Below, in pieces: positions 306-61,479 of a stretch of DNA of 62,760 nucleotides. This DNA is from Flavobacteriales bacterium (GTDB lineage: Bacteria > Bacteroidota > Bacteroidia > UBA10329), in assembly GCA_021739695.1 (NCBI GenBank), contig JAIPBM010000028.1:1-62760 (forward strand), read 5' to 3'. Numbering within the stretch: position 1 is the first letter of the stretch; the number at the start of each line of letters is the position of its first letter. The position numbers and the translations under genes are program-made. Below the pieces are notes generated by a model, which saw nothing but the letters and a program-made list of their open reading frames with translations, did not search any database and had not been told where the DNA came from.

Positions 306-536
306 TCGTGAACATCATCCTGAAACGCGTGAATTTTATCTCCCAAGGCGTGAACATCATCCTGAAAGCAATGAAAATCATTCTGAAGATCCCGCTCAAT
401 CATCTTGAAACGAATCCATAGCCTCTCCCAAGGAGTCCAGATCATCCTGACCTTCGTGAAACTCATCTCCCAACAAATCCACAGCATCCTGACCCTCGTG
501 AAACTATTCTCTCAAAGAATCCATTGCCCTTGCTAA
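306..536. repeat. 21-bp-period degenerate tandem array A (11 units)
   Basis: The segment divides into eleven consecutive 21-base units with no insertion or deletion. Units at 306, 348 and 369 resemble GTGAACATCATCCTGAAA; units at 327, 411, 453 and 495 carry a CTCYCAA ending in the same phase. Similarity decays to the right but the phase is kept. Because 21 is divisible by three, long open frames with heptapeptide periodicity arise on both strands; I read them as by-products. The array lies upstream of rsmE. Confidence 0.85.
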
Positions 537-6708: not shown

Positions 6709-7857
6709 ATGATGAATAAACTCTCACCATACTTCAAGCAATTATTGGTTTTGCTGCTGTTCTACACATTTCACACGACCTCTGAAGCTCAGACTAGGGT
6801 AAGTAGTCAATCTGAAGAACCATCTCTAGACGTGATTTGGACCTCGCTACTTGATTATGCTGGAATTTCGGAATCTGAGTTGCTTTCAGAATTTCCTTCT
6901 TTCCCAATCCGAGGAAAACAGGTTACGGGAATAGGAACTTGGTTACAGAAGAACAGGAATGAATCTGAAAACTTGCTAGCCCTTTTAGAAAAACATAAGA
7001 TCACTCCCTCCAGAATACAGTTGGGACTCGGGGAGCGAGCCCTGCGATATACTGATGTTGTTCCATATTGGAGCAATGCTTTTGGTGCTTACGGGTCTGA
7101 AGCCGAGATTAGAAAACAACTGATTCATATGCCTGACCCTAAAGACTATTGCGAAGTAGGTGCATACTCAGCTGACATGAAGAAATTCGAAAGCTGGCGA
7201 GATGAGTTCGGTTTCGGTCCAGGTGCAAATGAGAGAATTGTAATTGAAAAAGCTCCTGACCCTCAATCGCTTTACGATGAAGACATTTATCCTTGCATTG
7301 GAAAATATTATGTTGCGATTGAAAAGTGGATCTGGGAATACCCAAAAGAGTATCATACAATGATGGCTGCATGTAATTGCAGTGATGTAAATTGGGTTGA
7401 CATGCCTGTCATGCCCGATTCCCTTAGACAACCTTACTTGACGCCCAAAGAGAGAATTGCCTCAGCCATTCCTGTAGGATTTGACCCTGGTAGCGATGAT
7501 CATGCATCAACCGAAACTATAACAATTGTCACATCTAACAACCCAATTGATGTTCTTAGCAAGGTCAATTCTAAACTAATAAGATCTGACTTGGAAACTA
7601 CACTGATGAGCTCAGGTGATCAAGCGTTTGGAGATGCGCTAGTGGAAATAGTAGCAAATGAAGGCGAATTCTGGTTTATTTATCATTCATCATTGATTTG
7701 GTATTTCGAGCATGACCGCAGATTGTTTGATCTATTGTCTCCTATTGAGACGAAACATGGATATGACCTTAGTGGCATGCTAATTCGAGGTAATGCGAGT
7801 ATCACTACGGTTGACGACAACGAGTTAATTGCGAAATTCAAATTGATATCACAATGA
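6709..7857 (+). CDS. Exported protein of unknown function, coupled to giant surface protein
   Basis: A 382-aa protein with an N-terminal hydrophobic signal (LLVLLLFYTFHTTSEAQ). I do not recognise a family. It is acidic and tryptophan- and tyrosine-rich, with cysteines in DYCEVGAYS, IYPCIGKYY and AACNCSD, which suggests an oxidised exported fold. An alternative start is the second Met (6712). Its stop overlaps the start of the 1950-aa gene as ATGA, so the two are translationally coupled. That suggests a partner, chaperone or secretion accessory of the giant protein; this is inference. Confidence 0.8.
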   Translation: MMNKLSPYFKQLLVLLLFYTFHTTSEAQTRVSSQSEEPSLDVIWTSLLDYAGISESELLSEFPSFPIRGKQVTGIGTWLQKNRNESENLLALLEKHKITPSRIQLGLGERALRYTDVVPYWSNAFGAYGSEAEIRKQLIHMPDPKDYCEVGAYSADMKKFESWRDEFGFGPGANERIVIEKAPDPQSLYDEDIYPCIGKYYVAIEKWIWEYPKEYHTMMAACNCSDVNWVDMPVMPDSLRQPYLTPKERIASAIPVGFDPGSDDHASTETITIVTSNNPIDVLSKVNSKLIRSDLETTLMSSGDQAFGDALVEIVANEGEFWFIYHSSLIWYFEHDRRLFDLLSPIETKHGYDLSGMLIRGNASITTVDDNELIAKFKLISQ

Positions 7858-10800
7858 GAAATTACAGACTTTTATTCTTTTTAGCATCACTAATCACTGT
7901 CTTTTCTGCTACAGCTCAGACAGATTCTGATGGGGCTATGCGTGTATTCATGTACACCGTTTACATTTATACGGATAATAATGATGAATGGGGAACAGAT
8001 GAGCACACTCATAAACTGTGGAGACAGGAATGGGGAGATGCCAGCGGTAACGGAACAGGCTGGGATCAATCTGCTTGTTGGGGAATGAACTGTGGTGGTG
8101 GATGTCAGGGTACTGTTAACTGGGGGCTTGATTACAACTACTATAACCAATCTACCGTGCCAACCCAAAACCGCATCTATTCTGAATATTGGGAAGATGA
8201 TTGGGGAGATAGATGTACTTACGACACACCTTGGTATGCTGATAACGATGATGACCGCAACACGTGGGATCAAAATTACAATGTGCGTACTGGGTGCCCC
8301 TATGTATGGACGTATTTAGACTGGCAGGGAAGCTATTGGAGAAATGTACATTATTCCAGATTCTACTATTCATCGCCTAGACCAGACAACGCTTACGCAA
8401 ATGGCACATCAGGTACTTTAGACCTCTGTGGCGCTCAGAATATTTCACTTACTTCAGCTGGTAAGCAATGTGGAAGCAGCACCTACTATTGGTATAAAGA
8501 TGGTGTCTACATTGGTCAAAGCACAGGTACTTTAACATACTACGCAAGTACCAGTGGAACATACACGGTATACACCAATGATCAAAGCACTAACAGTATT
8601 TGGGGACGTGACGTTATTGTGAATATAGCATCTCCACCAACTGCCAATGCAGGTGCAGACGTCACTAACTGCGGCACCACTGGAATGATAACTGCTGGTG
8701 CAACTGGATCGGCAGGAACGGTAGCTTGGACCTGGTCTGGCACCGCTGCTACTCTAGGCAGCGCAAGCTCGCTCACAGGATGTACTATCAATCCTACCTC
8801 TTCAACAACTGCAGGTACGGGCACACTTACATTAACTATTAGCAGCGCAGGTTGCCCAAATGCCACATCCACTCGTACCGTTACTTGGCACGTGAAGCCA
8901 ACAGGTACTGCGGGCTCCAATATTTCGCAATGCTTTGATTCTACTCCATTGGCTGCTATTGCCATGACAGGAGCCACTATGAATGGCAATGGTCAGACTT
9001 CAACTGGCACTTGGTCAACTACCAGTGGTACTGGAACTGGAACATGGTCGCAGAATACTGCAAATCCGGCAGCTGCAACTTTCACACCCACTTCTGAAAG
9101 TGGTTCATTAACTGTTCGTTTAAGGTTACAAGCTACAAGTGGATATTGTAATGGCCAGTTTAACGATTACACAAGAACAATTACTTGGAGCAGAATAGGC
9201 GGCTCTGCAGGATCGGCTGTAAGCCAATGTGCCACAACGAATATAACTACCGCAGACGCTTCTATATATGGAGCGGGAACAAGTGTTAGCTGGCAGTGGC
9301 TACCAGCAACAGGCTCTGCGACATTAAATAGCAATACTTCACTTACAGGTTGTTTCCTCAGTGGTCTTTCGGCAAGTGGCTCTGGAACACTAAGGTTAAG
9401 AATTATTGGCGTGGCTCCATGTAATGACAAATATTTGGATAAAGCTATTTCTTGGTCCTCTACCCCGCTTGGTAACGCTGGATCTGCTATCTCAGTCTGT
9501 ACAGGATCGGGAACACCAATACCAATGACCGGTGCCACCGGTGGTGGGCTTACTGGAACACCTACTTGGACAGGAGGGGCCGGACTAGGCACTTGGACAA
9601 ACGGAGGCTCTGACCCCGCAGCTTGGACATTTACTCCAAATGGTACAAATCCATCAGGAACATTTACAGCAACATTAGATGTTGCAGGTATTTCGCCTTG
9701 CTCTGGTAGCGCTCCAACTACAACACGTACTGTAAGCTGGTCAACGCCACCGACTATCTCCATTGGCAGCGCAGTTAACTCTTGCAACGGAAGTGCTGCT
9801 GTCACACTTACAGGAGCGGCTGCAGGAGGCTCCATTAGTGGTTTCTCTTGGACCGTTCAATCTGGCGGTGGTTCAATTACTGGATCTGGTTCAAATCCTG
9901 CCACATATTCTTATGACACCCCAGGTGCTAACGGAACAGCAGTAGTGCGACTTACTGCCAATGCCAACGGAAATTGTACCGTAAGTCCTTACCTGGAACA
10001 AACCATACAATGGGGTTCAATTTCAGCATCTTCTCCAGCTACTATCACTTCTTGTGGTAATGTTGCCAACATTGCCATGTCTGGCACAGCTACTGGTCAA
10101 GTGGATCACGTAACTTGGTCTGGACAAACTGGTGGAAGCTGGGCCACAACACATGCTACCAATCCATCAGCTTGGGTATTTGACCCAACATCTACTTCGG
10201 GCAATTTCAATGCAACACTCACTGTTTACGGTGCTGGCGGATGTGTAGGACAGACCACTACGTCAGTAACAAATGTAGATTGGGATGTGTATCCTACGGT
10301 TGAAGCAGGCACTCCAATAGTGGTGTGTACAGGTGCTGGAGTTAATATTCCAATGGGCGCTTCTCCTAACGCTGCTGGTCAATACACTACAGTTCAGTGG
10401 ACGACATTATCAGCTGCATATGGATCTGGAACTTGGAACAACGGAGGTACAAATCCTGATAACTGGACTTTTACTCCAAGTACAGACGAGGGAGCAATTG
10501 TTGCACAATTACAAGTGAATGGTAATGGAAGTTGCACAGGAACGAATGTTACGGACATTAGAACCATACAATGGTCCAAGGCCCCTGTAATAAGTTCAAT
10601 TGCAACTACTTCAAATTCTAACTGTAATTACGCAAACGGTGCCATAGCTATAACCGCTACAGGTAATGGTCCATTAAGCTACTCATCTAACAATGGTGGA
10701 CTTTATCAACCTCTTAGCACCATACCTGGGTTAGCTACAGGAAACTATACAGTAGTTGTACAGGACACGGTTGGTTGCTCTACACCTTACGCATCTAATC

Positions 10801-29133: not shown

Positions 29134-29380
29134 AAATAAGAAAATTGATGCTGGCGGTAAAGGAATTGATGCCGATGGTGAAGGAATTGAATCTGGTGAT
29201 AAAGGAATCGGATCTGACGGTAAAGGAATCGGGTCTGAACATGACGGAATTTCAGTTGGAGGTGACGGAATTTCATCTGGAGGTGAAGGAATTTCAGCTG
29301 GAGGTGACGGAATTGATGCCGATGGTGAAGGAATTGAATCTGGATGTTGCGGAATTGAATCTGACGGTGTGGGACTGACC
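29134..29380. repeat. 21-bp-period degenerate tandem array B (about 12 units)
   Basis: The core GGAATT recurs at 29162, 29183, 29204, 29225, 29246, 29267, 29288, 29309, 29330 and 29351, always exactly 21 bases apart, with a degenerate unit at each end. The consensus is near GGTGAAGGAATTGAATCTGG. The array lies in the divergent promoter region between fabG and the EEP-family gene. One frame reads GKGIDAD/GEGIESG heptads. Bases 29142-29167 are identical to 45044-45069 in array C. Confidence 0.92.
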
Positions 29381-45037: not shown

Positions 45038-45355
45038 AAAGGGAAATTGATGCTGGCGGTAAAGGAATTCCATCTTACAGTAAGGAAATTGAATCTTACA
45101 TCGTGGAAATGGCATCTTACAGTAAGGAAATCGAATCTGGCAGGATGGAAATTCGGTTTTGGCGTGAAAGAAATTGAATCTTAGACAACGGAAACTCCAT
45201 CTTACATGAACGAAATCGAATCTTACTGAGAAGAAATTCAATCTTACAGTTGGGAAATTGAAAGTGGAAATGGTACGAACCTCTCTTGATGGATGGAAAT
45301 CGCACCTGGCAAGAAAGAAATTGAAGCTTACATCATGGAAATTGAAGCGTTGAGT
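45038..45355. repeat. 21-bp-period degenerate tandem array C (about 15 units)
   Basis: The core AATT (or AATC/AACT) recurs at 45045, 45066, 45087, 45108, 45129, 45150, 45172, 45193, 45214, 45235, 45256, 45298, 45319 and 45340: 21-base steps with a single one-base slip near 45160 and one decayed unit at 45277. The consensus is near GGAAATTGAATCTTACAGTA. It fills the gap between the ndk terminator and the 45458 gene. The 26 bases at 45044-45069 are identical to 29142-29167 in array B. Confidence 0.92.
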
Positions 45356-58698: not shown

Positions 58699-59159
58699 GG
58701 AATCTCAAGGTAGCTATCACCTTGTATGGCGCGTTGGAATATCGAATCGCAGTTCGTCAATCGTTTTTCGCTGATCAAATTTGTTTGGGATGGTACGACA
58801 ACGGTTTTGTCACCCTAACGAAGAGCCTGTGCTGAGCTTGTCGAAGTAAAGGGTCTCCTTGCTAGCTGTGCTGGACACGATGACAAAGAGATGCTTCTTC
58901 TAAAAACGCATTGAATTATTTGCGAACAACGATTATCGATCAACGAACTGCGATTGTGGCTACCCTTAGGCCTTTCGACTTATTCCTTGCTCCTTTTTCT
59001 TTTTGATTGGCGAAGAACGAATAACGATTATCGAATAACGATTAACGAATAACGATTTGCGATTACCCTACAGGTGCTTAAGTGCTTGGCACAGCGTGCG
59101 CATAGGAAATAGTGATCACCTTAAAGGCTTTCAAAAGCTCGGAGGTCTTTGTAGAACAG
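58699..59159. other. Gene-free region with dispersed repeats
   Basis: I see no gene. GTGCTGAGCTTGTCGAAGTA at 58829-58848 is a variant of the module at 117 and 249. At 59029-59062 the motif GAATAACGATTA or a variant recurs four to five times. The remainder shows nothing recognisable. Confidence 0.6.
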
Positions 59160-59222: not shown

Positions 59223-59909
59223 TTAAGGCATCGGAGTAAGCTGCACATTCACGGTAATCACACCATTATTTGTCACCACCACCGGAACATCTGTTTGCAG
59301 GTAACCAGCGGCAGATACCCGCAAGGTCTGAGGGCCTGCTGGCACCTTGGTCAAGCTGAAAGTACCCCCGGCACTGGTCATTACGCTTCCGCTCGTACCC
59401 AGTACTTGCACACTTGCTTTGATGATAGGCATAGAGCCGTTCATACTGCTTACCATACCATTTACGGTTCCACCAGATGTTTGATTGCCGCCACTGCCCG
59501 TGTCGCCACTGCCCGTGTTAGAGCCACCATTGCTTTTAGAACTCTGATTGACCTGATACCCCCATTGGCCCAACTGCTGTTCGTTGCCCTTCAGGGTTCC
59601 TAATAATATATCGCGCACCCGAGCTGATACGTTCACTACCGTGCCATCCGTATTCACATTCTGATCTTTCCGCTTACCCAGTAGTCCATCACGGTCTTCC
59701 GTGGCCATTTCGGCATCTCTACGCAGTTGTTTCTGCAAGGCATTCTTAGCAGCGGCATTCGACACGCGCGTCTCAAACGCGGTCATGTCCAAGCCGTTAA
59801 GCGGACTTGCCGCCCCATCAGCCGTGTGCTTTGCAATGATGTCCTGAGCCAATTGAATCAGGTCGTCAGCGTTGGTGGGTATAACCACCTTTACATTTTT
59901 TCGTGCCAT
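59223..59909 (-). CDS. Cytoplasmic protein with C-terminal carboxypeptidase-like regulatory domain
   Basis: 228 residues with no signal peptide. The N-terminal 110 residues are helical (MARKNVKVVIPTNADDLIQL, ITKHT-like segment, LLGKRKDQNVNTDGTVVN). A Gly/Ser/Asn-rich linker spans about 120-150, and a carboxypeptidase regulatory-like beta-sandwich follows (PIIKASVQVLGTSGSVMTSA, FSLTKVPAGPQTLRVSAAGY). The function is unknown. The opening resembles a Bacteroidota family I know only as hypothetical. The leader region upstream is rich in hairpins. Confidence 0.78.
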   Translation of the reverse strand: MARKNVKVVIPTNADDLIQLAQDIIAKHTADGAASPLNGLDMTAFETRVSNAAAKNALQKQLRRDAEMATEDRDGLLGKRKDQNVNTDGTVVNVSARVRDILLGTLKGNEQQLGQWGYQVNQSSKSNGGSNTGSGDTGSGGNQTSGGTVNGMVSSMNGSMPIIKASVQVLGTSGSVMTSAGGTFSLTKVPAGPQTLRVSAAGYLQTDVPVVVTNNGVITVNVQLTPMP

Positions 59910-60086: not shown

Positions 60087-60475
60087 TGCTCCAATAATGA
60101 CAATTGGTATTCATATAATCATTATTGGTTTTCAAATAATGACAATTGGTATTCAAATAATCATTATCGGTATTCAAATAATGACAATTGGTTATTCAAT
60201 GATGAACATTGGTTATCATATTATCATCCTACGACATTCCACTAAGGCTCTGGCTTATTCAATAACCATTCTTGGTATTTCTAGAACCACCCTTGGTATT
60301 TCCAGAACCACCCTTGGTATTTCCAGAACCATTCTTGGTATTTCTAGAACCACCCTTGGTATTTCTAGAACCATTGTTGGTATTTCCAGAACCATTCTTG
60401 GTATTTCTAGAACCACCCTTGGTATTTCTAGAACCATTCTTGGTATTTCTAGAACCACCATCAGATTACCAACAG
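60087..60475. repeat. 21-bp-period degenerate tandem array D (18 units, two sequence types)
   Basis: The core TTGG recurs at 60104, 60125, 60146, 60167 (TCGG), 60188 and 60209, then after two decayed units at 60272, 60293, 60314, 60335, 60356, 60377, 60398, 60419 and 60440. All lie on one 21-base grid. The left half has consensus near ATAATGACAATTGGTATTCA, the right half near CTTGGTATTTCTAGAACC. A 198-codon plus-strand open frame (60001-60597) covers it, reading TLGISRT heptads; I regard that as a by-product of the period. Confidence 0.93.
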
Positions 60476-60678
60476 ACGGCCTAGCATTACCGATTATGAT
60501 AATTGAAGGTGGGAAAAGGGCTTGGCGATGCCCCCTTTTCAGTCATGCTACAGCGAGCAGCGATGAGGGTGTTGGATATGTTCAGAGGAATGGGTAGTAT
60601 TGATGGATATAAAAACAACGGAGCCTACAGAAAGAATTACCTATAGCACCCCTAATTGGAGGGCTATAAAAAGAAATC

Positions 60679-60762: not shown

Positions 60763-61479
60763 ATGTTATTGACACTTTCTAAGCGCCAGGATACAAATTC
60801 GAATACCGTATCGGCTAAAGAGTTCTTGGAATGGGCGAAAAAAGACCTTGAGAACAGTGACAAGCATTCAATCGGTAATGGAATTGGTAATATTAAGAAG
60901 GCCATTCACTGCCGAATAGACGAGATAATTGACGACACTCATATAAGGCACTGTGAAGGATGGAATAAGTTTGCCTCTACCGACACGAAACTTGAAGCTT
61001 TACGTCTGTTGAATTTTAAATTTACTGCGGTTGTTAGTCTGCTTACTGACATCAGGAATAAATACGAACATCAGTACAAACTCCCCGAATATCGGGAAGC
61101 ACAAGGCTTCTTGGACACAGCTGAAATGTGGCTTGAAATGTCCTATGATAAATACTCTTTCAATAAGCTGGCGATTGTTGGTCTAAAAACAACTGATTTT
61201 GGCGTTTCGTACAGTAATAATGGCACAAAACTCACAAGTTGTAAAATCGTCAAGTCTTCATCTTTAGACTACATATGGGACAGTAAAAAAGAAATTCACG
61301 AAATCAAGAAAGGGGTACGAAAAATTGTTCATATGAACACCATACCATGGAGGACAATGGCACAATATGAAGCAAAACATTTGGTCTTTACGGGGACACC
61401 AAATAAGACCGTCCATGTTCTGCCTGCGTCAATATTGACGAGTATATTTCGAAAAGCCTTAAAGGAACTTGTGGTATGA
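60763..61479 (+). CDS. Cassette 1 gene: hypothetical protein, possible HEPN-like
   Basis: A 238-residue soluble protein. The N-terminal half is helical: SAKEFLEWAKKDLENSDKH, GIGNIKKAIHCRIDEII, FKFTAVVSLLTDIRNKYEHQY. RNKYEH fits the Rx4-6H pattern of HEPN ribonuclease domains, but I do not recognise the whole family. The gene begins 17 bases after the left cassette box, and the right box starts within 7 bases of its stop. The content is AT-rich and differs from the neighbouring chromosomal genes. Confidence 0.7.
   Translation: MLLTLSKRQDTNSNTVSAKEFLEWAKKDLENSDKHSIGNGIGNIKKAIHCRIDEIIDDTHIRHCEGWNKFASTDTKLEALRLLNFKFTAVVSLLTDIRNKYEHQYKLPEYREAQGFLDTAEMWLEMSYDKYSFNKLAIVGLKTTDFGVSYSNNGTKLTSCKIVKSSSLDYIWDSKKEIHEIKKGVRKIVHMNTIPWRTMAQYEAKHLVFTGTPNKTVHVLPASILTSIFRKALKELVV

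Follow-up and report, generated by a model that had tools for sequence, protein, structure and literature searches.

Intergenic arrays with a 21-bp period in a Flavobacteriales genome as possible helically phased lattices of protein-binding sites

An uncultured Flavobacteriales bacterium of the class Bacteroidia carries intergenic arrays of abutting units with a common period of 21 bp, and these arrays hold their phase more strictly than their sequence. About half show dyad symmetry on the 21-bp lattice, an array of another Bacteroidia family exchanges its half-sites about a fixed axis, and the arrays are non-coding. It is proposed, at roughly even chances, that they are helically phased lattices of putative DNA-protein binding sites. 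A search of the literature on 21-bp or helically phased bacterial repeats, covering open-access papers, found no description of such arrays, so the set is apparently undescribed in the literature searched.

The window is the whole 62,760-nucleotide stretch of DNA that was analysed, contig C28 of a 4.24-Mb, 98% complete MAG. The genus is represented by eight other species, including the public MAG Flavobacteriales bacterium M30B40; another congener is a public MAG labelled Chryseobacterium gleum MiH-22jul19-154, which is surely mislabelled. Repeats were scanned in 1.64 Mb (39%) of the genome. Several of the tests are post hoc.

Arrays in the window

Four arrays had been proposed in a first-pass annotation, and all are borne out at about the coordinates given there: 306-536, 29134-29380, 45038-45355, and 60087-60475. 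The mean match at lags 21, 42, and 63 is 0.45, 0.67, 0.50, and 0.74 for arrays 1 to 4, respectively, against 0.27 in shuffled sequences, and the 21-base lag reaches z scores of 10, 22, 15, and 35. At lags from 15 to 30 other than 21, the match is at most 0.38 in all four. The arrays and the genes that flank the fourth are as follows.

306..536: array 1, roughly 11 units in a decayed state, with one +1 slip near 390-400
29134..29380: array 2, 11-12 units of GGAATTGAATCTGACGGTAAA in unbroken phase, in the gap separating the divergent genes for SDR and Exo_endo_phos proteins
45038..45355: array 3, about 15 units of GGAAATTGAATCTTACAGTAA, one +1 slip at 45166, between the genes for NDK and a Por_Secre_tail protein
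59223..59909, minus strand: gene for a CarboxypepD_reg-like domain protein, flanking array 4, which lies upstream of it
60093..60227, plus strand: array 4a, 21-bp units of family AATTGGTATTCAAATAATGAC with 42-bp higher order; TRF periods 21, 42, and 63; core phase 4
60228..60263, plus strand: decayed link between 4a and 4b, with equal core phase on either side
60264..60457, plus strand: array 4b, nine near-identical 21-bp units of AACCATTCTTGGTATTTCTAG, with the palindrome TTCTAGAA and 63-bp higher order
60484..60491, minus strand: possible inverted core GCATTACC at the phase of array 4, a single weak match with two mismatches to GAAATACC
60763..61479, plus strand: gene for a 238-aa protein, flanking array 4, without a Pfam match and not detected in the 38 relatives searched

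The initial description of the arrays as almost free of indels holds, though not strictly: arrays 2 and 4 have no slip, and arrays 1 and 3 have each slipped once by a single base. That their sequences differ, as had also been stated, holds in part: arrays 2 and 3 belong to one unit family (72% over about 124 bp), and both halves of array 4 contain GGTATT. Within the focal array (60087-60475), the GGTATT core stays in a single phase from 60106 to 60442, including across the decayed link between the two sub-families. Array 4b has relatives on contig C3 of the same genome (L023:7251-7523) and in congener G006 (L251). The units abut, and there are no CRISPR-type spacers between them.

The window also contains other repeats. 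Positions 1-98 and 206-300 include a 49-bp direct duplication with CTCTGCGTCTTAGTACCTCCGCGTG that looks like a dispersed intergenic repeat, and part of 1-35 is found again, at 94%, immediately before array 1. Positions 59011-59057 hold an intergenic heptamer/14-mer array, CGAATAACGATTA; several such 7-base arrays are present across the genus. Downstream of array 4, 60566-60657 matches another intergenic region (L110:4203-4293) over 92 bp at 86% identity.

Preference for 21 bp in the genome and its relatives

The scanned 1.64 Mb contains 25 arrays of the 21-bp type, 5 to 19 units long, which extrapolates to about 60 genome-wide. When periods from 13 to 33 are treated alike and intergenic arrays are counted, 17 of 24 in this genome and 10 of 16 in its congeners fall at exactly 21, compared with none of 22 in other Bacteroidia (831 kb, about 100 contigs; Fisher p of 2e-7 and 2e-5, respectively). 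The first-pass annotation had named a similar frequency of other periods as the result that would refute its proposal, and the scan did not show it. Arrays in coding DNA also adopt other multiples of three (15, 18, 24, and 27); the coding class here comprises open frames of at least 150 codons, and some arrays enter it because a stop-free 21-base unit keeps the frame open. Two coding repeats of a different kind, L191:17152-18711 and L221:2672-3039, are collagen-like, with a 9/18/27-base period in long ORFs. An intergenic array at L205:452-627 has four 41-bp units, one base under 42, and may be related to the 21-bp arrays through a slip.

Six congeners have 21-bp arrays (G002, G003, G004, G006, G007, and G008). 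When 395 genomes of the class were searched for GGTATT occurring three times with a 21-bp spacing, intergenic arrays were detected in G139, G249, and G274, which represent three other families, so the arrays are not confined to the genus; because this search presupposes 21 bp, it shows presence and not preference. In G274, one unit family, TATTAGNGGAGCTCNAATAGG, occurs in at least three dispersed copies (L268, L274, and L279).

Dyad symmetry and half-sites

Reverse-complement symmetry on the 21-bp lattice has a z score of 7.6 over 32 arrays, of which 16 are individually significant at p<0.05, and of 4.8 in seven arrays analysed later, five of which had not been part of the first set. Dyad symmetry is lacking in about half of the arrays, window arrays 1-3 among them. 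In L023, GGTATTTC lies at 7293, 7314, and 7377 and GAAATACC at 7419 and 7461, all in one phase and occupying the same eight columns. Its relative L251 in congener G006 has GGTATTTC at 303 and the near-match GGAATACC at 345, again in one phase. Cores of the focal-array family are inverted in place, with the register unbroken. The array L258 of G274 is composed of 14 units. Each has a pair of 10-bp half-sites that face inward; NCGAACANTA, AGTTTTGGTA, and AGTTACANTA are the three types available, and they are combined freely as A-A, B-A, A-C, C-B, and C-C about a fixed axis.

The first-pass annotation had suggested that each unit presents the same helix face. The dyad lattice and the in-place inversion of cores agree with this geometry, as does, more weakly, a 10.5-bp periodicity of column conservation (z 3.7-3.9; z 1.5 in new arrays), and the spacing itself points to a common face. 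Phased A-tracts or curvature are not supported as a feature that unites the arrays: A-tract phasing reaches a z score of only 2.2, no single window array is significant, and at 10.5 bp the A+T signal has less power than expected. A 5.25-bp A+T periodicity was dropped because it did not replicate in new arrays.

Phase conservation and mutational origins

The claim that phase is kept more strictly than sequence is upheld by the arrays of this genome, which have accumulated 558 mismatches to their consensus and 3 net slips, all of +1. The TRF ratio of indels to mismatches is 0.043, and simulations place the true ratio near 0.02. By the same measure, simulated neutral decay at 0.05-0.2 indels per substitution leaves two to seven times more indels, and 72% of the observed arrays have no indels versus 10% in simulations at 0.1. 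Detection bias is small, since 52-60 of 60 simulated decayed arrays are still detected. The very old arrays L118, L208, and L154 have units that are only loosely alike, yet 9-11 units remain in perfect register.

The main rival to a binding-site lattice is that the arrays are neutral minisatellites, whose 21-base step arises from hairpin-assisted slippage, template switching in quasi-palindromes, and whole-unit unequal exchange. Phase and dyads would then be by-products, with template switching making the arms match. Higher-order repeats of 42, 63, and 84 bp show that whole units are amplified, dyads in half of the arrays are what hairpin-driven slippage would favour, and array positions turn over between species. 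However, indels are several-fold below simulated neutral decay, old arrays keep their register, and half of the arrays have no dyad. An ordinary neutral minisatellite is also free in its period and carries a usual number of indels, and the arrays show neither. Finally, young two-copy 21-bp duplications are almost absent outside long arrays, which indicates that the arrays do not simply represent the longest products of duplication at large and which also led to rejection of a 21-bp staggered-duplication process. On balance, a neutral origin is considered rather unlikely.

Genomic setting, turnover, and mobility

The arrays had been described as lying upstream of genes or between divergent genes. 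This is true of the four in the window and does not extend to arrays in general, as the 30 arrays with both neighbours placed comprise 15 codirectional, 10 divergent, and 5 convergent settings. No common function is seen among the flanking genes of array families. The convergent settings and this lack of a common function, together with the absence of dyads from half of the arrays, count against the lattice reading, as do the weakness of the 10.5-bp conservation signal in the new arrays and the failure of the 5.25-bp A+T signal to replicate. The decayed array in L208 adjoins a gene for a C5 cytosine methyltransferase with an N-terminal MerR-type HTH (L208:3722-4969). A separate interspersed repeat of 70-150 bp is present in several intergenic regions (L209:2090-2240, L220:8919-8987 and 10396-10537, L105:8953-9024, and the left flank of L154) and also in congener G008.

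Conservation of the arrays in place, which the first description implied, is contradicted in sister species. Three genes flanking window arrays were traced into the eight congeners, with seven or eight found for each, and there is no array at the three orthologous gaps. Related units instead recur in non-orthologous places beside unrelated neighbours. The unit family ATTCCGATWGGAAT is found in L200 of this genome, L244 of G002, and L166 of G004, and the array at window position 60264, L023, and L251 of G006 have GGTATT in common. Comparison of units from different arrays gives a mean z of 0.1, most of them being unrelated, and a clear relationship is seen in only about nine of 595 pairs, on which basis a single common unit for all arrays was rejected.

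Such dispersal could reflect MITE-like mobile elements that carry a minisatellite and have transposed and then decayed. Related arrays do occur in several copies within one genome, namely L268/L274/L279 in G274, window arrays 2/3, and window array 4b with L023. BLAST of 200-bp flanks, however, finds no leader or tail common to related arrays, and since the units are mostly unrelated, transposition alone cannot account for one common period. Mobility is considered an improbable source of the arrays.

Coding and RNA structure

Transcribed RNA hairpins, serving as stem-loop binding sites or decoys, are a more improbable explanation still. The dyad arrays L023, L105, and L200 fold more stably than column-permuted controls, with z scores of about -2 to -5. 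On average, the z score for folding comes to only about -1, many of the arrays form no fold, and an Rfam search of the window gave no match. The extra folding is found mainly in dyad arrays and is about equal on both strands, and uniform RNA hairpins were rejected. The mixed half-site combinations of L258, such as C-B and B-A, disrupt hairpin pairing yet retain the sites, a pattern more in keeping with binding by dimers than with folding of the DNA or RNA.

The suggestion that the period is a heptapeptide frame, in which seven codons per 21 bases would exclude indels, has almost nothing left to it: 21 is divisible by three, at least one frame is open in most arrays, and some frames are protein-like (GIESDGK in array 2), but variation over 30 arrays has no 3-base periodicity (37.8 vs 38.5 expected, p 0.72), arrays 1 and 3 have one-base slips, and L188, L201, L166, L170, and window array 1 have stops in all six frames.

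Comparison with known systems

Replication iterons are direct repeats of about 17-22 bp, or about two helical turns, that serve as tandem sites for an initiator protein. They consist of one unit at one origin beside the rep gene, unlike the arrays described here, which occupy many loci with different units.

The BrickBuilt repeats of Porphyromonas gingivalis, also a member of the Bacteroidota, are likewise intergenic, spacer-free tandem repeats dispersed over the genome (PMC4596501). They comprise a single family of 23-nt units carried by a MITE that has a conserved leader, tail, and inverted ends (PMC4596501), whereas the present arrays have many unrelated 21-bp units and, according to the flank comparison, no common ends. 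TAACTGA heptamer arrays are intergenic direct repeats that occur in some Bacteroidetes too (PMC4679880). They have one 7-base unit, unlike the 21-bp arrays, which have many unit sequences and no 7-base sub-period. A heptamer origin was rejected, as the match is 0.234 at lag 7 and at background at lags 7 and 14, compared with 0.61 at lag 21.

The closest worked example for a lattice of binding sites is BvgA~P at the ptx promoter of Bordetella pertussis. At the ptx and fha promoters, BvgA~P occupies three to six weak, phased dimer sites with centres 22 bp, or two turns, apart on one helix face, with a monomer at each turn and little consensus between sites; at ptx, six dimers bind without a strong consensus (PMC7250471). 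The 21-bp register similarly corresponds to integral turns, with 3 net slips in this genome, and its spacing suggests a common face. Dyad symmetry of the kind expected for dimer sites is strong in about half of the arrays and absent from window arrays 1-3. Unlike the BvgA~P sites, which involve one regulator, a 22-bp spacing, and promoters, the arrays have 5-19 units of 21 bp at dozens of loci.

Proposed mechanism

In a binding-site lattice, each 21-bp unit would comprise two successive half-sites of ~10.5 bp, which in many arrays face inward about a dyad. Dimers of a putative DNA-binding protein may sit side by side on one helix face, with one dimer for each two turns, and their binding may be cooperative along the 5-19 units. 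Each site may be weak because many stand in register, which would allow the letters to drift, whereas an indel would rotate downstream sites off the helix face and be selected against. Duplication in steps of whole units (21, 42, or 63 bp) would supply new sites, and the symmetry of the dimer would make it tolerant of sites that have been flipped. Each array family may have its own reader among a set of paralogous proteins, or a single low-specificity protein may serve them all; its specificity would have to be very low for it to bind unrelated units. Such binding may affect transcription or the organisation of the chromosome.

Significance

A broader proposal, which is tentative and somewhat against the odds, is that helical spacing and not sequence defines a class of bacterial chromosomal element. 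Such elements would be built from interchangeable half-sites of ~10 bp at 21 bp per dimer, with selection maintaining the register as sequences and positions change, and they may contribute to nucleoid organisation or act as cooperative regulatory platforms across a branch of the Bacteroidia. If slippage instead underlies the arrays, mutation must be able to proceed in a fixed step of two turns, and this would be no less unusual. Selection on the register, if it operates, would make the arrays dozens of natural experiments in which DNA geometry rather than sequence is conserved. They would also point to an oligomerising DNA-binding protein, or a family of them, in the Bacteroidia and to a mode of regulation in which many weak sites act in phase, which has so far been worked out at single promoters such as ptx.
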